The notes below the pieces were generated by a model that was not told the origin of the DNA, did no database searches, and was given only the letters and a program-made list of their open reading frames with translations. DNA of 64,000 bases from Dickeya chrysanthemi NCPPB 402 (GTDB taxonomy: Bacteria; Pseudomonadota; Gammaproteobacteria; Enterobacterales; Enterobacteriaceae): NCBI RefSeq assembly GCF_000406105.1, contig NZ_CM001974.1, positions 1,465,001 through 1,529,000 of the forward strand, given 5' to 3'. Position numbers and translations under genes: made by a program. How positions within the stretch are numbered: the first letter of the stretch is position 1; each line of letters starts with the position of its first letter. Shown piece by piece: positions 33,493-56,368 of this stretch.

Positions 33493-34668
33493 TTAACGGT
33501 GCGAGCCCGTTACCTGACATAAGGCTTTTGCGCCCGCCAGTAGCGTAGCGTCATCTTTAGAGAATGAAAGACGGATCAGCTTATTGTCGGTGCCATCGGT
33601 GTAAAACGCCGAGAGCGGAATGGTCGCCACACCGTGGTCGACGATCAGGCGTTTAACCATGTCGCCGTCGCTCTCATCGCTGAAGTGCGCGAAGCTGGCC
33701 AGTATGAAGAAGGAACCGGCGGAGGGTAGCAGCTCAAAGGGGCTGCCCTGCAACGCCTGCGTGAGCAGATCGCGTTTTTGTTGATAGAACTGGCCCAGCG
33801 ACAGATAGGTCGCCGGGTCCGCCATGTATTCGGCAAAGGCGTATTGCATCGGCGTATCGGCGGAAAACATCATAAACTGGTGGATTTTGAGGATCTCATC
33901 CATCAGCGCTGCCGGAGCCAGGCAGTAACCGACGCGCCAGCCGGTAACGTGAAACGTCTTGCCAAACGACGAAACGATAACGCTGCGCGCCGCCAGCTCG
34001 CTGTGGGTTGCCATGCTGTGGTGGCGTTGCCCGTCAAAGACCACGTGTTCGTAGACTTCGTCGGACAGGATCACGATATCGGTGTTGCGCGTCAGGCGCG
34101 CCAGTTGCGCCAGGTCATCGGCGCTCAACACCTGACCACTCGGGTTATGGGGCGAGTTAATGATAATCATGCGGGTGCGCGGCGTGATGGCGGCCTGCAC
34201 TTCGTCCCAATCGATGTTAAACCCCGGTACCGCCAGTTTCAGCGCAACCGGGGTTGCGCCTTGCAACCGTACAATCGGCGCGTAGCTGTCAAAGGAGGGT
34301 TCGAAATAAATCACCTCATCACCCGGATGCACCAGCGCAGAAATGGCGGAATAGAGCCCTTCGCTGGCACTGGCGGTGATCGTCACTTCCTGCCCGGCGT
34401 CATAATGCTGGCCGTACAAACGCCGCACTTTTTCCGCCACCACTTCTTTTAGCGATACCAGCCCGGACATCGGGGCATATTGATTATGACCTTCGGTCAT
34501 GGCGCGGGTCACCCCGGCGATCAACTCAGGGGAACACGGAAAACTGGGCGCGCCTTGCGACAGATTGATGGCATGATGCTGACTGGATAACTGGCCAATA
34601 ACGGTGAAAATGGTGGTTCCGACATCCGGTAATTTGGAACTAAACCGCACCGGGGTGTGAATCGGCAT
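33493..34668 (-). CDS. PLP-dependent aminotransferase, YbdL/methionine aminotransferase type
   Basis: 391 aa class I/II aminotransferase, closely colinear with E. coli YbdL: SKLPDVGTTIFTVIGQLSSQHHAINLSQG at the N-terminus, NSPHNPSGQVL (substrate carboxylate/PLP region), SDEVYEHVVFDG, and the Schiff-base lysine in VSSFGKTFHVTGWRVGY (about residue 243). YbdL prefers methionine, with His and Phe as further substrates, so a role in methionine salvage or 2-oxo-acid transamination is likely. Start at 34668 has GGAG 7 bases upstream; the frame's earlier start is unsupported. Divergent from a LysR gene. Confidence 0.88.
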   Translation of the reverse strand: MPIHTPVRFSSKLPDVGTTIFTVIGQLSSQHHAINLSQGAPSFPCSPELIAGVTRAMTEGHNQYAPMSGLVSLKEVVAEKVRRLYGQHYDAGQEVTITASASEGLYSAISALVHPGDEVIYFEPSFDSYAPIVRLQGATPVALKLAVPGFNIDWDEVQAAITPRTRMIIINSPHNPSGQVLSADDLAQLARLTRNTDIVILSDEVYEHVVFDGQRHHSMATHSELAARSVIVSSFGKTFHVTGWRVGYCLAPAALMDEILKIHQFMMFSADTPMQYAFAEYMADPATYLSLGQFYQQKRDLLTQALQGSPFELLPSAGSFFILASFAHFSDESDGDMVKRLIVDHGVATIPLSAFYTDGTDNKLIRLSFSKDDATLLAGAKALCQVTGSHR

Positions 34669-46028: not shown

Positions 46029-46547
46029 TTGCGGACTGAAATGTGCAGATGTCACCAACGCCCGTGGCAGGAATGGCTGGAAGAGCAGCGTAAAAATAGT
46101 AATTACAATGCCCGGCAGCTATGGCGAGAAATGGTTGAAGCTGGCTTTACCGGCAGTGACACGACCGTCAGGGATGTTGTCGCTAAGTGGCGTAAACAAG
46201 TTGACGGCTCGGTTACCGCGCCGGGACGCCTTCCCTCTGCATCCCGGGTCAGTCGCTGGTTGATGCCCTGGCGAATGGTCAAAGGAGAAGAAAACTGTGC
46301 GTCCCGGTTCATCAGGTCAATGTGCGAAAAAGAACCGCAACTTAAAATGGCGCAACAGCTGTCACTCGACTTCTACCAGATGCTGAAAACGAAGAATAAA
46401 TCCCAGTTAAATCAGTGATTCGCTGACGTCAGTCAGAGTGGGCTCATTGACCTTCAGCGCGTTGCGGCCGGGATGGAGGCTGATGCAACAGCAATACGCG
46501 AAGCGATAAGCAGCAGATGGAGTAACGGCGTATTCTGTAAAACGTAG
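46029..46547 (+). pseudogene. ISL3-family transposase remnant with in-frame stop
   Basis: Central and C-terminal pieces of an ISL3-type DDE transposase: NYNARQLWREMVEAGFTGSD and VRDVVAKWRKQ, then after an in-frame TGA at 46416-46418 the same frame continues SGLIDLQRVAAGMEADATAI and REAISSRWSNGV before another stop at 46545-46547. The N-terminal zinc finger, most of the catalytic core and the inverted-repeat ends are missing. It marks the border between the GC-rich LysR/reductase block and the TetR block. Confidence 0.8.
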
Positions 46548-46583
46548 TTTCATCTATCGAGACATATCCTGAACCCTGTAAGC

Positions 46584-46649
46584 TCAAATCGGTGTGAGCA
46601 GCAGGATGTGGTTGCCTGATTGAGTGAGTTGTCGCGCTTTAAAAGGCAT
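46584..46649 (-). pseudogene. Possible 5' stub of a lost gene divergent from tetR
   Basis: 21 codons (PFKARQLTQSGNHILLLTP) with a good ribosome site (AGGAGATAAATC) immediately upstream, ending at a stop next to the ISL3 remnant. It faces away from the TetR gene and its operator, as a TetR-controlled target normally would. Too short to name. Confidence 0.3.
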
Positions 46650-46787
46650 GATTTATCTCCTGTCTGTTGGTGCATTTAGCGGATATCACAAATATTAATG
46701 TAATGAATATAGTCACTTGTAATATCGCGACACCGAACCGCAACATGTTTTTTTATGATGATGATTAAAATCAAAAATACGACATCT

Positions 46788-46807
46788 TTGATTATGAGTG
46801 ACATCAA
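46788..46807. promoter_or_regulatory. TetR operator copy 1 (autoregulatory)
   Basis: TTGATTATGAGTGACATCAA, the same 20-bp site found at 47773, 49311 and 49345. It lies 46 bp upstream of the tetR start used here. Confidence 0.75.
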
Positions 46808-46853
46808 TGTAGAATATAGGGCTGAGTATTTACGCATAGAGGGGATGGCTAAC

Positions 46854-47423
46854 ATGAAAGTCACCAAAGCACAGGTGCAGGCGAACAGAGCACATATCGT
46901 CGAAACAGCTTCGATGTTATTCCGGGAAAAAGGCTACGACGGCGTAGGCGTGGCGGATCTCATGGCGGCGGCGGGCTTCACCCATGGCGGATTTTACAAA
47001 CATTTCGACTCCAAAGCCGATCTGATGGCGGAAGCGGCTGCATGCGGTTTTTCACAATCCGAAATAAAAATGGATGGGGTAGAGATTGTCGATTTCGTCA
47101 AGCATTATCTTTCGCGGGAACACCGGGATGGACGAAATAAAGGCTGTACTATGGCCGCTTTGTGTAGTGATGCCGCTCGTCAGAATGAAACGATTAAAGC
47201 GACATTTGCTGAAGGTATAGAAAGCCAACTCTCTCTGTTAGGTGGTGGAAATGTCGCTGATGGCAATGTGGATATGCGGACAAAAATTATCAACACATTA
47301 GCTCATTCAGTAGGTGCAGTCATTTTGTCACGATCCTGTCCTGATGACTCGCCACTGGCAGACGAAATTCTGGACGTTTGTTGCCGGGAGATTCTTTCGC
47401 GGTTGGCATCAAAAGATAGCTAA
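46854..47423 (+). CDS. TetR-family repressor of the quinone-reductase/ene-reductase module
   Basis: 189 aa. HTH within AHIVETASMLFREKGYDGVG and VADLMAAAGFTHGGFYKHFD (residues about 11-50), a C-terminal ligand domain with SREHRDGRNKGCTMAALCSD around 90-110 (Cys residues that could sense electrophiles, as in NemR-like regulators; inference). The start at 46854 has AGAGGGG 9 bases upstream; starts further up would put the operator inside the gene. The same 20-bp operator occurs before this gene, the MDR gene and the ene-reductase gene, which argues for one local regulon including itself. Confidence 0.88.
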   Translation: MKVTKAQVQANRAHIVETASMLFREKGYDGVGVADLMAAAGFTHGGFYKHFDSKADLMAEAAACGFSQSEIKMDGVEIVDFVKHYLSREHRDGRNKGCTMAALCSDAARQNETIKATFAEGIESQLSLLGGGNVADGNVDMRTKIINTLAHSVGAVILSRSCPDDSPLADEILDVCCREILSRLASKDS

Positions 47424-47950
47424 TTAGAAAAAGCGATATTGCGCGCTCACTCCGATAAATCCCATTGACGGCACCGGCTTTTGACCGGTGTGCGCAGTCC
47501 CTGATGAGTCATTTCTTGTAGTTATAAAGAGACTGTGTTGAGGTGGATATTGATGCATTAAGCGCGCTACTGTTATCTGGAACGTTCGCAATTAGCCCTG
47601 CATGTCCACTCGCCATAAAGACGACAAAAAATAATTAATTTAAAATAAAACAAAGAGTAAGCTTTCTCTTTCGTTCTCGTTGAGGGCGTACTAGCGACTT
47701 CGTCTCTGCTGGTATTTTCCGTGGTTAACCAAAGTAAAGATGACGGTCATCATTTTATTTTTTTACGACAGTTTGATTATGATCGACATCAATGTATAGT
47801 GATGATACGACCTGAACGCAGCAGCATTAAATGAACATCCTGGTGATTAGCATGTCTCGGCGTTGTTCAACTGACTCCATATTGATTGCATACAAAAATT
47901 GTGTTTATGCAGCATAAGGTTAACCAAAATCCCTATAGGTGATGACGAAT
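47424..47950. promoter_or_regulatory. Intergenic region with TetR operator copy 2
   Basis: About 525 bp without a supported gene. The main element is the operator at 47773-47792, roughly 160 bp upstream of the oxidoreductase start. A weak CACCGG/CCGGTG hairpin lies near 47472-47490. Confidence 0.5.
47773..47792. promoter_or_regulatory. TetR operator copy 2
   Basis: TTGATTATGATCGACATCAA, differing from copy 1 only in the central AT/C positions; upstream of the MDR oxidoreductase. Confidence 0.75.
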
Positions 47951-48952
47951 ATGAAAGCACTCATGTTCAAGGAATATGGCAAGGCCGATAGCATTACATT
48001 CTACGAAATTCCGGTTCCTGAAATTCAGCCGAACGACATTCTTGTGAAGGTTCACGCGGTAGGGCTAAACCCAATCGATTACATGATCCCAAAAGGAACA
48101 TTTAAGCCGGTGCTTAAGTTTGCTCTCCCCGCCACAGTTGGCAGCGATCTTGCGGGAGTGGTTGAATCAGTTGGCAGCCGTGTAACTCGTTTCAAACCGG
48201 GAGACGCCGTTTTTGCCAGCATCTTCGATATGGGTATAGGGGCACTGGCAGACTTTGCTGTTGTTCCCGAAAGGGCGGCAGCGCACAAACCCGTAAACCT
48301 CGACTTTGTGCAGGCTGCTTCCATTCCCATGGTAGGACTCACATCATGGCAGGCGTTAAAAGAACGTGCACACCTGAAGCCAGGGCAAAAGGTTTTCATA
48401 CCAGCGGGTTCAGGTGGGATTGGATCGTTTGCTATTCAACTGGCTAAACAACTTGGTGCAACGGTAGGTACAACGACAAGTACGGGCAATCTGGAGATGG
48501 TTCGGCGTTTGGGAGCGGATGAAATAATAGATTATAAGAAGCAGGAGTTTGAGGATATTTTACAAGGTTATGATGTAGTGCTTGGGACGGTGAGAGGCGA
48601 CCATATTCAGAAGTCGCTCAATATATTAAAACCCCATGGCCGTGTTGTATCGCTAATCGGTCCTCTTGATGCAGCCTTTGCCCATGCACGAGACATGAAT
48701 TTTCTGATGAAATTTATCTTTAAGCTGATGAGTTGGAAAATTATCCGTCTCGCTAAAAAGCGGGACATACAGTATTCATTCCTGTTTGTACATACTGATG
48801 GTATGCAGCTCGAAGAGATCTCTGAATTTCTTGAGGCAGGAAAGATTCATCCTGTAATTGATAAGGTATTTTCATTTGAGGATGCCAAACAGGCGCTGGC
48901 GTATCTTGAAACTGGTCGGGCCAAGGGAAAGGTGGTCGTTAAACTGATATGA
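47951..48952 (+). CDS. Zinc-free MDR oxidoreductase (quinone reductase / enoyl reductase type)
   Basis: 333 aa. GroES-like N-terminal domain with VHAVGLNPIDYMIPKGTF and VGSDLAGVVESVGSRV (about 57-72), then a Rossmann NADPH domain with VFIPAGSGGIGSFAIQLAK (about 146-164). The catalytic zinc ligands are absent, as in QOR/zeta-crystallin proteins that reduce quinones or alpha,beta-unsaturated carbonyls. Start at 47951 (KALMFKEYGK) has AGGTGA 8 bases upstream. The TetR operator about 160 bp upstream suggests control by the neighbouring TetR protein. Followed by a hairpin terminator. Confidence 0.88.
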   Translation: MKALMFKEYGKADSITFYEIPVPEIQPNDILVKVHAVGLNPIDYMIPKGTFKPVLKFALPATVGSDLAGVVESVGSRVTRFKPGDAVFASIFDMGIGALADFAVVPERAAAHKPVNLDFVQAASIPMVGLTSWQALKERAHLKPGQKVFIPAGSGGIGSFAIQLAKQLGATVGTTTSTGNLEMVRRLGADEIIDYKKQEFEDILQGYDVVLGTVRGDHIQKSLNILKPHGRVVSLIGPLDAAFAHARDMNFLMKFIFKLMSWKIIRLAKKRDIQYSFLFVHTDGMQLEEISEFLEAGKIHPVIDKVFSFEDAKQALAYLETGRAKGKVVVKLI

Positions 48953-49021
48953 AACATTATTCATGAATATATCTTTTAAATAAAAATAGACCTCAACTCA
49001 TTCGAATTTTGGAAAAAAGTG

Positions 49022-49042
49022 CGAGCCGTTTTGAACGGCTCG
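49022..49042 (+). terminator. Terminator of the MDR oxidoreductase
   Basis: Perfect 9-bp stem CGAGCCGTT / AACGGCTCG with a TTG loop, followed by TTTGG, 70 bp after the stop. A second imperfect hairpin (GCGTC-GCCT / AGGC-GACGC) is at 49111-49138. Confidence 0.7.
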
Positions 49043-49310
49043 TTTGGTATGGCGCAACCGCTAAAGCGGAGCGTTAAGCGAATTCGCTGTATCAGTAAGC
49101 TATTCAAATAGCGTCGGCCTAATTAAACAGGCTGACGCCTCTCATCTCATTCTGACATATTCAGAAACCTGCCTTTGCATTGAAAAGTACTTTTTGAAGG
49201 AAAGTTTACGCGGGCTCTCGCCGTGCTTTAACCATATCCAGGCGCTAAATTGTGTGTTGTTTATTTTATAAATAATTGATTTTAAAGTTTAAATTATCGT
49301 AAACAATTTA

Positions 49311-49364
49311 TTGATTATGATTGTAATCAATGATGTTGACTTTATTGATTATGGTTGTCATCAT
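49311..49364. promoter_or_regulatory. Two TetR operators (copies 3 and 4) before the ene-reductase gene
   Basis: TTGATTATGATTGTAATCAA at 49311-49330 and TTGATTATGGTTGTCATCAT at 49345-49364, 34 bp centre to centre, ending 33 bp before the start codon. Both share the TTGATTATG half of copies 1 and 2. Confidence 0.78.
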
Positions 49365-49397
49365 AAATGAACGATACAAAACAGGAAGGAAAGTAAA

Positions 49398-50488
49398 ATG
49401 ACAGATAACAGTTTATTTCAGCCTTACAAACTGGGTTCTCTGATATTAACGAATCATATTGTAATGGCTCCGCTTACACGTAACCGTGCCGGTTCAGGCC
49501 TTGTTCCCGGTGAATTTGCTGCGACTTACTATGCGCAACGCGCTTCCGCAGGCTTGTTAATTACTGAGGCGACACAGATTTCGGCACAGGCTCAGGGGTA
49601 TCAGGATACACCCGGCCTTTATACAGAGGAGCAAATCAAGGGGTGGCGCAAAGTCACTGATGCGGTTCGTGCCAAAGGCGGACGGATATTTGTGCAGTTG
49701 TGGCATGTAGGACGGGTTTCCCACGTTGATCTGCAACCTAAAGGTGCTGCGCCAGTTGCGCCTTCAGCTATTCGTGCCGAGACAAAAGTTTTTGTTAACA
49801 ATGGTTTTCCGAGGCATCAGAGCCGCGTGCTCTGGAGCTTGATGAGATCCGGTCCATCGTCGAGGATTTTCGTAAGGCGGCATCCAACGCCATGGCTGCC
49901 GGTTTTGACGGCGTAGAGATTCACGGTGCTAATGGCTATTTGCTTGAACAGTTTATTAAAGATGGTGCTAACAAGCGTACAGATACCTACGGGGGATCAA
50001 TCGCTAATCGTGCCCGGCTATTACTGGAGGTGACAGCCGCTGTTGCTAAAGAGATTGGTGCAGAACGCACTGGTGTGCGTATTTCACCTGTTTCTCAGGT
50101 TAATGGGATTTCCATCAGTGACTCTCAAGAGCAGTACGATTACATCGTAGATCAGCTTAATACTCTGGGTATCGTATACATTCATGTTGTTGAAGGCGCG
50201 ACAGGCGGCTCTCGCGAGAATATTCCGTTCAATTACGACTCTCTGCGTCAGCGGTTTAAGAATACCTATATAGGCAATAACGGCTATGATCTGGATTTGG
50301 CCAAAAAACAGTTCGCCGAAGGTAAGGTTGACCTCTTTGCCTTCGGGCGTCCTTTCATTGCTAATCCGGATTTGGTTGAACGTTTAAAAACCGGTGCGCC
50401 TTTGGCACCAATTAACCCTGCAACACTTTATGGCGGGGGAGCCGAAGGGTATACCGATTATCCTTCCTTAGTTAATACCGATATCTGA
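49398..50488 (+). pseudogene. Old yellow enzyme / NemA-type ene-reductase with one-base frameshift
   Basis: Two frames (49398 to about 49810 and about 49811-50488) together give a full-length (~363 aa) FMN-dependent OYE. Part one: LGSLILTNHIVMAPLTRNRA, ATYYAQRASAGLLITEATQI, FVQLWHVGRVS. Part two: FDGVEIHGANGYLLEQFIKD with the His/Asn substrate pair, and the YGGSIANRARLLLEV segment. At 49807-49812 the text TTTTCCGAG lacks one base relative to an expected TTTT(G)CCGAGGCATCAGAGCC reading (ADASEPRALEL). Real inactivation or a sequence error. Such enzymes reduce enones, nitrate esters and N-ethylmaleimide. GGAAGGAAAG ribosome site; operators 3 and 4 directly upstream. Confidence 0.82.
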
Positions 50489-50568
50489 TAACAGCGAGTA
50501 TTTTGATACTAATTTGCTGTGAAATATTACTTATACCAAATTCATTTCAATATTAGAGAGATATAAAT

Positions 50569-51351
50569 ATGACAACCAAGTCTTCTGTTTTGATCACCGG
50601 CGCTTCCACTGGGATTGGCGCGACCTATGCAGAGCGCTTTGCCCAACGCGGCCATGATTTAGTGTTGGTTGCACGTGATAAAGCCCGGATGGAAGCTCTT
50701 GCTACTCGTTTAAACCAGGAATATGGGGTTGTTGTCGACGTTCTTCCTGCTGATCTGACTCAATCTGATGAACTGGCGATAGTCGAAGAACGCCTGAAAG
50801 CTGATTCAAAAATCGAAACTCTTATTAATAATGCCGGAATAGCACAATCGGGATATTTTCTTGATCAGACTCCAGACTCTATTAACAGGCTTATTGCTCT
50901 TAATATAACTGCTCTGACACGCCTCTCCAGCGCCATTTCTCCACGCTTAGTACAAAATGGTAAAGGAGCAATCGTTAATATCAGCTCGGTAGTCGGTCTG
51001 GCACCTGAATTCAATATGTCAGTATATGGCGCAACCAAAGCCTTTGTCCTCTTTCTTTCTCAGGGAATGAACCTGGAATTGTCACCCAAAGGGGTTTATG
51101 TGCAGGCGGTTCTTCCCGCCGGAACCTATACCGAGATCTGGGAGCGCGCAGGCGTCGATATCAGTTCCTTCGCCAAGATGATGGAAGTCGGTGCTCTGGT
51201 GGATGCTGCGTTGGTCGGCTTTGATCGTCGAGAACTTGTAACAATTCCGCCCCTGCAAAATGATGAATACTGGAAAGCGCTTGATCAAGCACGACAGGCG
51301 TTGGTTTCTGACATCCGGCAGGCTGACGTTGCAGAACGGTATCGAGCCTAA
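50569..51351 (+). CDS. Short-chain dehydrogenase/reductase
   Basis: 260 aa classical SDR: cofactor motif TGASTGIGATYAERFAQRG (about 10-28), NNAG (about 86-89), NISSVVG (active-site Ser about 139) and YGATK (Tyr about 153, Lys 157). An Arg in VLVARDKAR after beta-2 points to NADPH. Located 80 bp after the ene-reductase gene with a GAGAGA ribosome site and no terminator between, so likely cotranscribed under the same TetR operators. Probably reduces the carbonyl of enone-derived ketones; substrate not known. Confidence 0.88.
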   Translation: MTTKSSVLITGASTGIGATYAERFAQRGHDLVLVARDKARMEALATRLNQEYGVVVDVLPADLTQSDELAIVEERLKADSKIETLINNAGIAQSGYFLDQTPDSINRLIALNITALTRLSSAISPRLVQNGKGAIVNISSVVGLAPEFNMSVYGATKAFVLFLSQGMNLELSPKGVYVQAVLPAGTYTEIWERAGVDISSFAKMMEVGALVDAALVGFDRRELVTIPPLQNDEYWKALDQARQALVSDIRQADVAERYRA

Positions 51352-51377
51352 CTGTAAGAGTGTAGTGGGGCTTAGCA

Positions 51378-51480
51378 GCCAGGCGGAAATTTGATCAAAC
51401 TGCTGAGATGAAATGAGAAAAGATGGGGAATCAGATGTTTTCGTTTAAGCGAAACGCTGCCTGCTGACGTACTACCAATT
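51378..51480 (+). repeat. Stem-loop direct repeat, left copy
   Basis: About 103 bp aligning with 62261-62363 at roughly three quarters identity, with a nearly invariant core TTTGATCA--CTGCTGAGATGAAATGAGAAA (in parts) and CGCTGCCTGCTGA. Contains the hairpin TTTCG-TTTAAG-CGAAA at 51439-51454. Confidence 0.7.
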
Positions 51481-51504
51481 GACTCCTGCATGGTTTTTTT
51501 AAAG

Positions 51505-51531
51505 ATTTCGTGCGCCCACTGCGCACGAAAT
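51505..51531. terminator. Perfect 11-bp hairpin upstream of the TetR remnant
   Basis: ATTTCGTGCGC / GCGCACGAAAT with a CCACT loop. Preceded, not followed, by a T-run, so terminator function is doubtful; it may end the SDR transcript or be an element end. Confidence 0.35.
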
Positions 51532-51550
51532 TACAAGCCAACCAGTGCTT

Positions 51551-52057
51551 ATGGCTAGGGTCAGCTCAATCTGCGAGTTGATCCGGCTAATATCCAACAG
51601 TCACGGGCGCATTTTTTATCGTAACTTTCCCTCACAGGAAATATTAGTGATGGAGGTTTATCGCTATGAGATGTTGCAGGTCGCAAAATTTGCTGAGCAC
51701 TTGCTCCAGACTCGTCAGCCAGACCAGGCATTGAGGGAGTGGATAAATCGCCTTGCCGAGTACGCCATAACCAAAGCTGGCTTGGCCAATGCAATTCGTG
51801 AGGTATCACTCACGCAGGACTGTCCGGGAAATGCGGGCTATGCCCCGATAATCGCTGCAGCGCAATTACTACTCGATGCAAATAAGAAGGCTGGAACAAT
51901 CCACGCCGGCGTTACCACTGGCGACTTTTTCCTTGCAATTGCAGGGATCTGGCAGCTCGATTTTAATGACGATTGGAAACCACGGCTAACCTGGCTCATC
52001 GATATCGTTATGACGGGACTGTGCGCGGGAGCGCCACTTCGTGATGTTTCTCAGTAG
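51551..52057 (+). pseudogene. TetR-family regulator, N-terminally truncated
   Basis: 168 codons. The sequence SHGRIFYRNFPSQEILVMEV corresponds to the recognition-helix end of a TetR HTH, and EHLLQTRQPDQALREWINRL, APIIAAAQLLLDANKKAGTI and TGDFFLAIAGIWQLD follow the normal ligand domain. Helix 1 and most of the HTH scaffold are missing or degraded (RVSSICELIRLIS), and a stop lies shortly upstream. No ribosome site. Probably a dead regulator left at the edge of the GC-rich block. Confidence 0.6.
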
Positions 52058-52254: not shown

Positions 52255-53148
52255 TTATTGAGCTAAAAACTTAGCGGAGGCTCTTTCTACGCTAAAGAAA
52301 AGCTCTGCATCTGGATATTTTATTTTCATGCGGTTTTGAAATTCGGCGCGACTGCTTGATTTGGAAAGTTCTTCTTCAAAAACCAAAAGATATTGTTTTG
52401 TGAAATAAATTGCACTGTAGGCGTCAAGTTTTTTATTCGGAAAATTATGCCCTGGAATAACGATTTTAGGGTTTTGTTTTGCAAGCGCATCGAGATTTTG
52501 AACCCAGCGTTTTCGGCTCTCAGGCGTCGTTTCGACGGTATAGACGTGCATTTGGTCATAGGCCATGTCACCGACTACCGCGACACGCTCTTTTGGGAAC
52601 CAAAGGTAGGAGTTCTCATCGGTATCCCCCTGAAGATGTTTATGAATCTCGATTTTTGTACCTTCAATACTGAGTTGGTCTCCATCGTATCTGGTTATGG
52701 GAATTTCACGGGTAGCAGCCTTTGACGACAGTATCCCATGCCACTTTTCAAGCTTGGCCTTGTATACCTCATCTATACGGCTCGCGACCTTAGGGTTAGC
52801 TAAAATCTCCACTTGTGGAAAAGCGTCCTTGAAGACCTCCAACCCCAAAAAATGATCAGCATGTTCGTGAGTGATATAAATCTGCTTAAGATTCTTTTTG
52901 AGCGATCGTATCAAATCGAGGACTTTAAGCGCATTCGCTCGAGTAAGTTGCGCATCAATCAGCAGGAGTTCTTTATCCCCCTCAACAATCACCGAGTTAT
53001 CAAAAAAGCCATCGTCTTCTGAAGTGAATACATGAAAAGTCAGATCGGAAACGTTGACTGATTGGCTGGCGAAAACTGTTCCAGCTGTGAGAGTAAGGGT
53101 GCAAAGCATCAGGAGGTTTTTTATAATTCCATTTATTTTCATATACAT
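52255..53148 (-). CDS. Secreted metallo-beta-lactamase-fold hydrolase
   Basis: 297 aa with a signal peptide (NLLMLCTLTLTAGTVFAS; cleavage about residue 27). Metal ligands are in ITHEHADHFLG (HxHxDH, about 93-98), with a third His expected in HLQGDTDENSYLWFP, Asp in VVGDMAYDQ and the late VIPGHNFPN His. Lacks the specific features of true beta-lactamases or glyoxalase II, so call only the superfamily; relatives include quorum-quenching lactonases and arylsulfatase-like hydrolases. AT-rich coding, unlike the GC-rich genes to its right. AGGA 7 bases before the ATG at 53148. Confidence 0.82.
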   Translation of the reverse strand: MYMKINGIIKNLLMLCTLTLTAGTVFASQSVNVSDLTFHVFTSEDDGFFDNSVIVEGDKELLLIDAQLTRANALKVLDLIRSLKKNLKQIYITHEHADHFLGLEVFKDAFPQVEILANPKVASRIDEVYKAKLEKWHGILSSKAATREIPITRYDGDQLSIEGTKIEIHKHLQGDTDENSYLWFPKERVAVVGDMAYDQMHVYTVETTPESRKRWVQNLDALAKQNPKIVIPGHNFPNKKLDAYSAIYFTKQYLLVFEEELSKSSSRAEFQNRMKIKYPDAELFFSVERASAKFLAQ

Positions 53149-53649: not shown

Positions 53650-53783
53650 ACATCCTGAACCAGTCCCTTCAGCGCCCACAGTGCGCTACCCGTCACGATA
53701 GCGGTGCTGAGCGTTTCATGCCTTTTCTTCCAGCGCGCCAATCCCCCATTCGCCTCGACCACCCGTGTCAGCAATTCGGGCAT
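53650..53783 (-). pseudogene. N-terminal fragment of a paralogue of the 57743-58465 gene
   Basis: About 45 codons from an ATG at 53783 with GGAG upstream: PELLTRVVEANGGLARWKKR then a GSALWALKGLVQD stretch. It parallels NELLELAVKAHGGLDRWEKI...GGALWHIKG of the intact gene at 58465. Fused at 53650 to the tautomerase fragment, so it is the product of a deletion joining two genes that lie side by side in the other copy. Confidence 0.65.
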
Positions 53784-53815
53784 GTTCCGCTCCCTGACAG
53801 GGCTTGCGTGGCGGA

Positions 53816-54604
53816 TCAATAGCCCTTGAATTCGAGCATCGGGCGCGGCGTGCCGGCCTTTAGGGCTTTGATAGCCGAAGCAAGCCCGTCCTTCACGTCT
53901 TCCGTCTCGAACAAGGGCATGGCGATGTTGAACATCACATCGTCGGCCGTCTGGACACCGCCGTTAGCCCAGGCGCGCAGCAAGGCCTTGTGGGCGGCGT
54001 GGGCGCGTGTCGGGCCGTGCACGAACTTCGCGGCGAAGGCATGCGCCTCTGCAAGCAGCTCGGCATCGGCGACGACGCGGTTGATCACGCCGAAGCGCTC
54101 CATCGTCGCGGCAGGGACGCGCTCGGAAGTCAGCGCCCATTCCATGGCACGTGCGCGTCCTGCGCGTTCGGCGACGCGATAGATGCCGCCCAGCAGGGTC
54201 ACGAGGGCAAGCGACTGTTCCGGATGGCAGAACGTTGCGCTTTCGGCGGCAAAGATGACATCGGCGCGCAACGCCAGTTCAAAACCACCGCCGGCACATA
54301 AGCCGTGCACCACCGCAATGACAGGCAAGGGCAGGCGTTCGAAGCGATTGAAGACATCCATGTAACCCTCGAAGCGCGCACGCAACTGGCGGGGGGTGTC
54401 GTCGGGCCAGGGCATGATGTCGCCGCCAAAGCTGAAGTTCTCGCCTTCGGCGCGCACCAGTACGACGCGTGCATCACTGCGTTCGATCGCATTGATCGCT
54501 GTAGCCAGTTCGTCAACCATCTGGTCGCCGATGCGGTTTTGCGGCGAGCGAGCGAGAATGATCGTGGCAATGCCATGATCGATGGTATGGGTGAGATGAG
54601 ACAT
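53816..54604 (-). CDS. Enoyl-CoA hydratase/isomerase family protein
   Basis: 262 aa crotonase fold. Oxyanion-hole segments ENFSFGGDIMPWPDD (about 54-68) and VVHGLCAGGGFELALRADVI (about 98-117), then FCHPEQSLALVTLLGGIYRV where hydratases carry the catalytic Glu (here Glu in HPEQ). One of the usual two glutamates (A-G-A-D-I-x-E position) is not evident, so hydratase, isomerase or decarboxylase activity cannot be separated. GC-rich. AGGAG 7 bases before the ATG. Same strand as the hydrolase gene 30 bp upstream, so cotranscribed. Confidence 0.85.
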   Translation of the reverse strand: MSHLTHTIDHGIATIILARSPQNRIGDQMVDELATAINAIERSDARVVLVRAEGENFSFGGDIMPWPDDTPRQLRARFEGYMDVFNRFERLPLPVIAVVHGLCAGGGFELALRADVIFAAESATFCHPEQSLALVTLLGGIYRVAERAGRARAMEWALTSERVPAATMERFGVINRVVADAELLAEAHAFAAKFVHGPTRAHAAHKALLRAWANGGVQTADDVMFNIAMPLFETEDVKDGLASAIKALKAGTPRPMLEFKGY

Positions 54605-54634
54605 GCCGGACTCCTGTGTTGTCGTAAGTTGAGG

Positions 54635-55531
54635 TTACGCGAGGTGTTCCTTGAACCAGTCCAGCGCGGCGGCACTGGATTGATCGAATCTGGTGGTGTA
54701 CGGATCGAAGTGGCCGCCGGGGATCGTCACGAGGCGCTTCGGCTCAAGGGCGCGCTCGTAGGCGGCCAGCTCGAGATCGGTCAGCGTGATCGTGTCCTGC
54801 AGCGCGACGATCATCAGCAGCGGCGTGGGAGACACGCGCGCAATCCACGTGCCCGGTTCGTACATGCGCGCGGCGCGCGTCGAGCGCACCGTGACGCTGT
54901 TTTCCCAGACGCCGTCGGGCACGGGCTGCAGATAGAACTCGACGGCATCCTTGGCGCGGTACGAAGCAGGGATGGTAGGATCGGCGCTGACGATCGTCTG
55001 TCGGTGCGGCGACTCACCGCGTGCTTGCGCGCGCTCGTCCGCCGCGAAGGCGTCTTCAATGGCGGCAACGGCGTCGGGCGGAATACGGCGCAGTCCTTGC
55101 TCGAAGCCGCTGATCGTCGGCACCTGCGCGACGACCGCGCGCAAGCGGCGTTCGGTTGCGCCAAGCACGAGCGCGTGACCGCCGGAATAGCTCGTGCCCC
55201 ACAAGCCGATGCGCTTCGCGTCGACGACGTCCTGATGTTCCAGGAAGCTGATCGCGCGCCGCCAATCGGCGATCTGGCGCCATGGGTCGATATCCTGGCG
55301 CGGCGTGCCATCGCTGGCACCGAAGTTGCGGTGATCGTGCAGGAGGACGACAAAGCCATTCGAGGCGAATTTCTCGGCGAATCGCTCCAGGCCGTGCTCC
55401 TTCACGCCGGCATAGCCATGCGCCATGGTGATGGCGGGATAAGGGCCGGTACCGCCGGTGGGCACATAGAGCCAGCCGCGTAGTGTGACACCGCCCTCGG
55501 CTTCAAATGAGATATCGGTACGTTGAAACAT
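54635..55531 (-). CDS. Alpha/beta-hydrolase (DLH/acyl-esterase-like)
   Basis: 298 aa. The fold opens with GVTLRGWLYVPTGGTGPYPA and the oxyanion region TMAHGYAGVKEHGLERFA; nucleophile Ser about 114 in GLWGTSYSGGHAL; acid Asp in MIVALQDTITLTDLE (about 246); His about 276 in TIPGGHFDPYT. Such enzymes act on dienelactones, polyketide or short acyl esters. No signal peptide. AGGAG ribosome site. Forms an operon-like run with the enoyl-CoA hydratase; the flavin reductase and OYE genes upstream on the same strand may join it, though 157 bp with gene debris separate them. Confidence 0.85.
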   Translation of the reverse strand: MFQRTDISFEAEGGVTLRGWLYVPTGGTGPYPAITMAHGYAGVKEHGLERFAEKFASNGFVVLLHDHRNFGASDGTPRQDIDPWRQIADWRRAISFLEHQDVVDAKRIGLWGTSYSGGHALVLGATERRLRAVVAQVPTISGFEQGLRRIPPDAVAAIEDAFAADERAQARGESPHRQTIVSADPTIPASYRAKDAVEFYLQPVPDGVWENSVTVRSTRAARMYEPGTWIARVSPTPLLMIVALQDTITLTDLELAAYERALEPKRLVTIPGGHFDPYTTRFDQSSAAALDWFKEHLA

Positions 55532-55688
55532 GGGAGTTCTCCTTGTAGAAAAATGTCAGGCGGCGCCGTAAAAGTGACTGGCATCGACCTTGCCTTGCTG
55601 GCGGCGACCGAGTTTCGCGGAAAATTTCCGGACGCCATCGAGCGGCCGGTGATGAATCTCTGTATGCACGATCTTGCTCGGCGCCGGG
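55532..55688 (-). other. Intergenic gap with possible coding debris
   Basis: On the minus strand a frame reads IVHTEIHHRPLDGVRKFSAK then LGRRQQGKVDASHFYGAA before a stop at 55559. It has protein-like composition and ends cleanly before the hydrolase ribosome site, so it may be the tail of a lost gene. No family recognised. Confidence 0.3.
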
Positions 55689-56309
55689 TCAATCAACCGG
55701 TCGCTCAAGCCTGAAAAGCTGCTCCGCGCTGATTTCGAAGTAGTCGGCCGGCCCACCGCCGCGCAGGATCGGGCGCGCCTGCGCAGTCTGGTACACGCCG
55801 TCCTTGATCAACTTCCGGTCGATGTGGATCGCTACTGCTTCGCCCAACACCAGCCACGCCGGCAGCGCCGCGCCGCCCTGCGCCTCAAGCTGCACGATCT
55901 GGGTAACCACGCACTCGAACTGCACCGGGCTAGCCGCAACGCGCGATGGCCGCACTTTGGCAGAAGGCAGACTCTCCAGCCCGGCTAACCCGAACTCATC
56001 GACGTGTGCTGGCACCATCGCCGCGGAGGCGTTCATCGTCTCGACGAGCTCTCTCGTCACCAGGTTCCATACGAACTCGCCGGTGTCGCGCGCGTTGGCG
56101 AGCGAGTCCTTCGCACCCAGCGAGCAAAAGCCGATGATCGGCGGTTTGTAACTGAACAGGTTGAAGAAGCTGTAGGGGGCAAGGTTGCGCACGCCATCGT
56201 TAGAGACTGTGCTGATCCAGCCGATCGGTCGCGGAGCGACGATGGCGTTGAGCGGATCGTGACGCAGGGAATGCCCCTGCGCCGGTTCATAGAAATGCCA
56301 GTCGGTCAT
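55689..56309 (-). CDS. Flavin reductase-like FMN-binding protein
   Basis: 206 aa. Split-barrel flavin-binding fold: NAIVAPRPIGWISTVSNDGV (about 22-41), NLAPYSFFNLFSYKPPIIGF (about 43-62) and DTGEFVWNLVTRELVETMNA are hallmarks of the COG1853 family, which supplies reduced FMN to two-component monooxygenases or acts as a reductase itself. No monooxygenase component is present in the window. GC-rich. The gene is 59 bp after the OYE gene on the same strand. No strong ribosome site seen beyond GGTAAAAC. Confidence 0.85.
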   Translation of the reverse strand: MTDWHFYEPAQGHSLRHDPLNAIVAPRPIGWISTVSNDGVRNLAPYSFFNLFSYKPPIIGFCSLGAKDSLANARDTGEFVWNLVTRELVETMNASAAMVPAHVDEFGLAGLESLPSAKVRPSRVAASPVQFECVVTQIVQLEAQGGAALPAWLVLGEAVAIHIDRKLIKDGVYQTAQARPILRGGGPADYFEISAEQLFRLERPVD

Positions 56310-56368
56310 AGTTTTACCTAAAGCGCCCGCAGCTTGGCGGGCTTCGTTGTACGTTTATTAATCCGAGT

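Follow-up and report, generated by a model that had tools for sequence, protein, structure and literature searches.

Does a single TetR-type repressor control the reductase genes that lie beside its own gene in Dickeya chrysanthemi NCPPB 402, and if so, to which signal does it respond? The locus in question lies in a stretch of 64,000 nucleotides (contig NZ_CM001974.1, positions 1,465,001 to 1,529,000), hereafter called the window, in which its corrected span is 46755 to 51351. It encodes a TetR-family protein, an MDR-family oxidoreductase, an ene-reductase (OYE) and an SDR-family oxidoreductase, with all four genes on the + strand. An earlier reading of the bare sequence, referred to here as the original prediction, had placed four copies of a 20-bp operator in front of tetR, the MDR gene and the OYE/SDR pair, and had proposed one autoregulated electrophile-response regulon. 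Our analysis leads to the view that one TetR protein, acting as a dimer, represses its own promoter and two others through paired dyads, and releases the reductases in response to a reactive carbonyl inducer or its precursor. We estimate the probability of this reading at roughly 0.85.

The four 20-mers of the original prediction are found on the + strand at 46788, 47773, 49311 and 49345, and the count of four has to be raised to six, as the sites at 46755 and 47737 had been missed. The six operators form three pairs, with the spacings given in Table 1. Each operator is a dyad of 20 bp with TWGATKWYGA as the consensus half. With at most two mismatches, the consensus pattern matches the window at these six places only, giving 11 strand-matches, compared to 0.10 in shuffled sequences. 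The same operators have the six highest scores of the window (20.1-29.6 bits) with the second of the two matrices described below, for which the window was outside the training set; the seventh-ranked site reaches 13.8 bits, while the best score in three shuffled windows is 6.7 bits. The half-site TTGATTATG occurs five times in the window where 0.48 is expected, the fifth copy, at 34480, being an isolated half. In its extended form, TTGATTATG-N3-G-N2-ATCA, the element has four occurrences with zero mismatches in the 4.7 Mb genome, every one at this locus. At up to two mismatches the genome holds 64 matches versus 14 for a reversed control, so that loose matches by themselves mean little. The 20-mers could also be seen as chance AT-rich or promoter-like repeats, or as a mobile repeat without a regulatory role, as the region is AT-rich for its immediate surroundings, with a G+C content of 43 to 50% at 46-53 kb compared to 60 to 64% on either side (43-46 and 54-56 kb) and 47 to 52% further out at 41-43 kb, and holds a weak match to an IS21 transposase. 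The excess over shuffled sequences and the conservation of the operator in distant phyla, however, make such an origin hardly credible.

This conservation was established in the best 80 named tetR loci out of at least 491, with TetR proteins 61 to 70% identical to the query. The organisms belong to several phyla and include Pseudomonas, Variovorax, Paraburkholderia, Xanthomonas, Aeromonas, Streptomyces, Kribbella and Verrucomicrobium; the loci are not independent, as many come from Pseudomonas and Streptomyces and two (L027 and L031) lie on one contig. A first matrix, trained on 16 sites from the window and the genus, was used to scan the 200 nt 5′ of each tetR, and a second matrix was built only from sites of the 80 loci, these sites having been chosen with the first matrix. 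With the first matrix, a site of at least 20.5 bits is present within 200 nt upstream of tetR in all 80 relatives, while 772 control stretches, taken at random from the same loci and covering site scores but not spacing, have a 99th percentile of 7.1 bits and a maximum of 13.4 bits. The second matrix finds a second site of more than 8 bits in 79 of the 80 relatives, at a spacing of 33 bp (28 loci), 34 bp (49 loci), 35 bp (one locus) or 65 bp (one locus), and the matrix scan thus places a tandem pair at 33 or 34 bp in 77 of them. In the remaining locus (L042 in genome G015), the genome scan finds the sites 34 bp apart, one of them beyond the 200-nt stretch. The recognition helix of the TetR protein is almost invariant.

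Closer to home, six orthologous loci in four other genomes of the genus all have the dyad pair beside tetR, which in these loci (L107-L112) is divergent from the gene set. The pairs are 34 bp apart in all five further tetR loci of the order (L156-L160). The 20-mer is present near orthologous genes in other genomes, so that the absence named as a refutation of the original prediction did not occur. Close TetR orthologues are patchily distributed: they occur in four of the eight other genomes of the genus and, with the window's own genome counted, in 6 out of the 295 genomes that were sampled from the order (E <= 1e-55). In three genomes of the genus that have no close orthologue (G003, G005 and G006), the full site listings contain no pair at 33-36 bp. 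Whole-genome scans for consensus matches in 20 genomes selected from the 80 loci also gave several matches away from tetR (L142-L148) that sit beside unrelated genes or within long open frames and look like chance.

The same genome also contains a paralogous module (L113, G000:C21:3963000-3973000), consisting of a TetR protein (37% identical), an aldo/keto reductase, an SDR (64%) and an MDR (50%). Its dyad, TAGATGATGCCTTTCATCAA, is related to the window operator, and a cluster of weaker sites is found at L113 4172-4242. The window sites might accordingly be bound mainly by another regulator, for instance this paralogous TetR at G000:C21:3968410, which is 37-39% identical and adjoins the related dyad. 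Sites in the L113 region, however, score at most 12.6 bits with the operator matrix, and it is upstream of the relatives of the window TetR that the dyad is found at 80 out of 80 loci in several phyla, which renders a different main regulator very improbable.

The position of the operators relative to the promoters suggests how one repressor would act. The sigma-70-like match nearest to each unit overlaps an operator, at 46788-46815 for tetR, 47773-47800 for the MDR gene and 49336-49364 for the OYE gene. A TetR dimer would bind each of two tandem 20-bp dyads at the promoters of tetR, the MDR gene and the OYE/SDR unit. At the first two promoters the proximal dyad would start with the -35 hexamer and occupy most of the spacer before the -10, while at the OYE promoter it would overlap the spacer and the -10. 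The two bound dimers, separated by about three helical turns and possibly cooperating, would exclude RNA polymerase. The repressor would then be freed by an inducer, most probably a reactive enone, a quinone or a comparable carbonyl compound, or else a precursor of one, and this release would switch on NAD(P)H-dependent reductases acting on the inducer. The identity of this inducer, together with the role of Cys98 as its sensor, is the least certain part of the model. Autorepression, through the predicted binding of the TetR protein to the sites in its own promoter, is well supported by inference. In the window, in the relatives and in Pseudomonas fragi, the findings argue for the single autoregulated regulon of the original prediction, in which the regulator gene and both target units are preceded by one and the same operator.

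When the three control regions of the window are aligned with the divergent control regions of the relatives, the same order of parts is found in all three. We infer that a single divergent region has given rise, by copying, to the present control regions of the three units. A wider proposal, which we consider possible but somewhat doubtful, is that the pair is a portable control unit. The operator hardly varies from Pseudomonadota to Streptomyces and Verrucomicrobiota, and the pair, with its two dyads 33 or 34 bp apart, would travel with its TetR protein and could be copied to new promoters. The divergent region copied to three units in the window would then be a cis-regulatory cassette for reductases of reactive carbonyls that are sensed via Cys98.

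Table 1. Operators and genes of the tetR locus; positions refer to the window.
Feature	Position	Strand	Remarks
tetR pair, distal operator ATGATGATGATTAAAATCAA	46755..46774	+	25.0 bits; 1 mismatch to consensus; added to the original four
tetR pair, proximal operator TTGATTATGAGTGACATCAA	46788..46807	+	21.7 bits; 33 bp from distal; begins with -35-like hexamer
tetR	46854..47423	+	repressor of 189 aa, starting with MKVTKAQ like its relatives; PF00440; alignments
MDR pair, distal operator AAGATGACGGTCATCATTTT	47737..47756	+	20.1 bits; 2 mismatches on - strand; added to the original four
MDR pair, proximal operator TTGATTATGATCGACATCAA	47773..47792	+	29.6 bits, top score in window; 36 bp from distal
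MDR-family NAD(P)H quinone/enone-type oxidoreductase	47951..48952	+	333 aa; PF08240, PF13602
OYE pair, distal operator TTGATTATGATTGTAATCAA	49311..49330	+	25.4 bits
OYE pair, proximal operator TTGATTATGGTTGTCATCAT	49345..49364	+	23.4 bits; 34 bp from distal
Ene-reductase (OYE) gene	49398..50488	+	two overlapping frames, 49398-49916 and 49892-50488
SDR-family oxidoreductase	50569..51351	+	260 aa; PF00106; 3′ of OYE gene

Other genomes give further indications of the extent of the regulon. In P. fragi, a separate pair with a spacing of 34 bp belongs to an OYE/MDR unit some 42 kb away from the tetR operator, and a single site of 28.0 bits (L139, position 3926) precedes a distant SDR gene, with homologues of pirin and OYE a few kb away. 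The operator code thus lets regulon members that are unlinked from tetR be found. Conversely, in two genomes of the order with an MDR 69-70% identical but no close TetR at E <= 1e-55 (G087 and G228), no site within 1.5 kb of the MDR gene exceeds 10 bits, and this absence of the site where the close TetR is absent supports one regulon under one repressor. In G295 and G095, the MDR gene follows SDR or OYE genes next to a tetR, and there is no site within 1.5 kb of it; in G080, the stretch around the MDR gene takes in the pair beside tetR. Among the 80 loci, a close OYE (at least 60% identity) is encoded in 35, a close SDR (at least 60%) in 51, an MDR (at least 44%) in 47 and all three in 22. A more distant case is Agrobacterium deltaense H31 (L105), where the TetR protein is 48% identical, the two best sites (17.0 and 15.9 bits) are 32 bp apart, and neither an OYE nor an SDR is annotated within the 8.6 kb examined.

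The original prediction knew of no described system with this set of genes, and here it has to be corrected. As far as the available part of its description goes, the xdo operon of Agrobacterium bohemicum comprises an OYE and an SDR gene and is repressed by the divergently encoded TetR protein XdpR, which was gel-shifted on a predicted TCATGA-N6-TCATGA site and is said to repress both itself and the operon (PMC5891007). The corresponding locus of pTiBo542 encodes an SDR, an OYE, an MDR, an alpha/beta hydrolase and a TetR protein, and it is these proteins, not those of A. bohemicum itself, that were compared to the window, with identities of 42% over 174 aa for TetR, 63% for the SDR, 69% for the OYE over its second piece and 51% for the MDR. 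The subgroup C1 signature of the xdo OYE, GxxDYP near the C terminus, has its counterpart in GYTDYP in the second frame of the window OYE, with the SDR gene downstream. The xdo operators TTCATGATGATCGTCATCAA (pTiBo542) and TTCATGACGATCATCATGAT (C58) are in the same register as the window dyad, and the C58 locus contains the published XdpR site exactly (TCATGACGATCATCATGA). The pTiBo542 and C58 loci have two sites each, 27 or 28 bp apart and scoring 12.9 to 23.2 bits. The operator code found here extends the single XdpR site of PMC5891007 to a tandem pair.

There are, however, clear differences. In xdo, tetR is divergent and has an operator region in common with the operon, and one site has been described, whereas in the window all genes point in the same direction and three promoters have three pairs, the MDR gene having a promoter pair of its own, unlike in xdo. 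The half-site is TTGAT in the window and TTCAT in xdo, and the window dyads have TGATKA halves. The published TCATGA-N6-TCATGA operator has no match with up to two mismatches at the window promoters, and the locus is therefore filed as an xdo-like variant and not as xdo itself. Judged by its sequence, the window locus is a rearranged variant of the XdpR/xdo kind that differs in its half-site, in the order of its genes and in how many operator pairs it has. Besides PMC5891007, no paper on this operator was recognised among the open-licence papers listed by the searches for it.

Other TetR systems are more remote. The window TetR is only 19% identical to NemR of E. coli, and the two are not orthologous; the nemRA-gloA locus moreover includes gloA, for which there is no counterpart among the window genes. 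At the E. coli nemR locus the operator matrix gives a best score of 0.1 bits, in a comparison that leaves NemR's own operator aside; a search for that operator in PMC3739934 gave no result. The available part of PMC8244358 describes CifR of Pseudomonas aeruginosa as a TetR repressor encoded divergently from a three-gene operon (cif, morB and an MFS transporter gene) and released by certain epoxides, and a work cited there states two CifR binding sites in its title. The likeness to the window locus lies in the TetR repressor. The enzyme encoded by morB is presumably an OYE as well. Two further candidates were set aside. PA3973 differs in its 13-bp motif, SAAGRNMTGAACG, and in its targets, this being a distinction by description (PMC9736018, available part) and not by sequence comparison. 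The allicin-resistance clusters share the gene names tetR, sdr and oye with the window, a likeness of names and not of compared sequences (PMC7119367, available part). The operator code found here is testable for a large TetR subfamily of 3277 proteins at E <= 1e-20, on which a single experimental paper was found and several of which are named in the database as nem-operon repressors despite the low identity of the window TetR to NemR.

As to the signal, the original prediction had pointed to a cysteine in KGCTMAALCSD. This segment holds two, Cys98 and Cys104; the former, a cysteine in all 80 relatives, is aligned to Cys106 in NemR, the latter is a cysteine in 40. Cys162 is likewise a cysteine in all 80, and position 160 is an arginine in all 80 where NemR has Lys175. 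An OYE, an MDR and an SDR as a set suit the removal of reactive carbonyls. Electrophile sensing through Cys98 is plausible but unproven. Alternatively, the inducer of the same regulon might be one particular small molecule that binds reversibly, for example a substrate of the enone or aromatic type from plants or microbes, with Cys98 having a structural function only and the enzymes forming one catabolic or interconversion pathway instead of a stress response. In the alignments, a GC motif also occurs in 2fd5 and 3qbm, relatives with solved structures, for which no sensing role was found described, and 11 of 37 TetR relatives match LmrA/YxaF-like C-terminal domains (Pfam). The authors of the XdpB study themselves proposed a single pathway with an unidentified substrate, and in the available part of their report codeine, the precursor of codeinone, caused no rise of xdpR or xdpB mRNA, while katG, trx1 and gshB rose (PMC5891007). 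On the other side stand the invariance of Cys98 and its alignment with a functionally tested sensor (PMC8748444, available part), as well as the fit of the three enzymes to carbonyl removal. We regard this alternative as a strong contender that falls just short of an even chance.

Control of three promoters by one TetR protein, the reading we prefer, also has to face several observations that weigh against it. Firstly, the lack of induction by codeine in xdo, a homologous system, argues against a general response to electrophiles. Secondly, the 36 bp that separate the MDR pair are found in none of the 80 relatives, and the paralogous TetR of L113, with its related operator, could cross-bind the window sites. 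Thirdly, sigma-70-like matches number 8 in 46400-51700 versus 9.8 in shuffles, a total no higher than chance that leaves only the position of the promoters informative, and an extra + strand promoter-like match upstream of tetR, at 46685-46713, overlaps no operator. Fourthly, four of the five outside MDR loci of the order have no site within 1.5 kb. Lastly, 13 of the 80 relatives have no close OYE, SDR or MDR in the fetched stretch, even when OYE matches from 40% are admitted. In ten of these 13 loci the divergent gene was inspected: five were assigned by Pfam, two as alpha/beta hydrolases, two as flavin oxidoreductases and one as an SDR, and the other five start like the alpha/beta hydrolases.

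The products of the locus can be described as follows. The TetR protein has both the TetR_N DNA-binding domain and an all-helical fold, its predicted structure having a mean pLDDT of 91.7 (AlphaFold2). Its best protein match, at 91% identity, is named Dickeya parazeae, and it reaches the cut-off of no NCBIfam model. The MDR matches the quinone_pig3 subfamily model with a score below the model cut-off, and the OYE matches the PRK10605 N-ethylmaleimide reductase model in two pieces, each below cut-off. The ene-reductase is not one open frame, a further correction to the original prediction. The OYE of an intact relative matches the window in two frames, with the change located within about 49784-49808, and this break may reflect decay or a sequencing error. 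As the OYE reading frame is broken, the MDR and the SDR are the outputs with intact frames in this strain. Damaged OYE copies occur elsewhere too, near residue 47 in L107 and near residue 85 in L160; L108, L109 and L111 have no OYE match in the locus, and L108 and L109 moreover have a shortened SDR match.

The IS21 transposase match lies at 46029-46418, between a LysR gene and tetR, and is a probable transposon remnant. Downstream of the SDR gene, an open frame at 51545-52057 has an SbtR-like TetR C-terminal domain (PF21597) and no match to a DNA-binding domain; it is probably a truncated second tetR gene. It is followed on the - strand, at 52255-53148, by an MBL-fold hydrolase gene, for which the best NCBIfam hit is a Vmh family model, below cut-off. 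Finally, the segment at 53782-56319, with genes for an alpha/beta hydrolase, an enoyl-CoA hydratase and a flavin reductase, shares 87.9% identity over 2.5 kb with plasmids of Agrobacterium tumefaciens, which looks like a transfer between distant bacteria.

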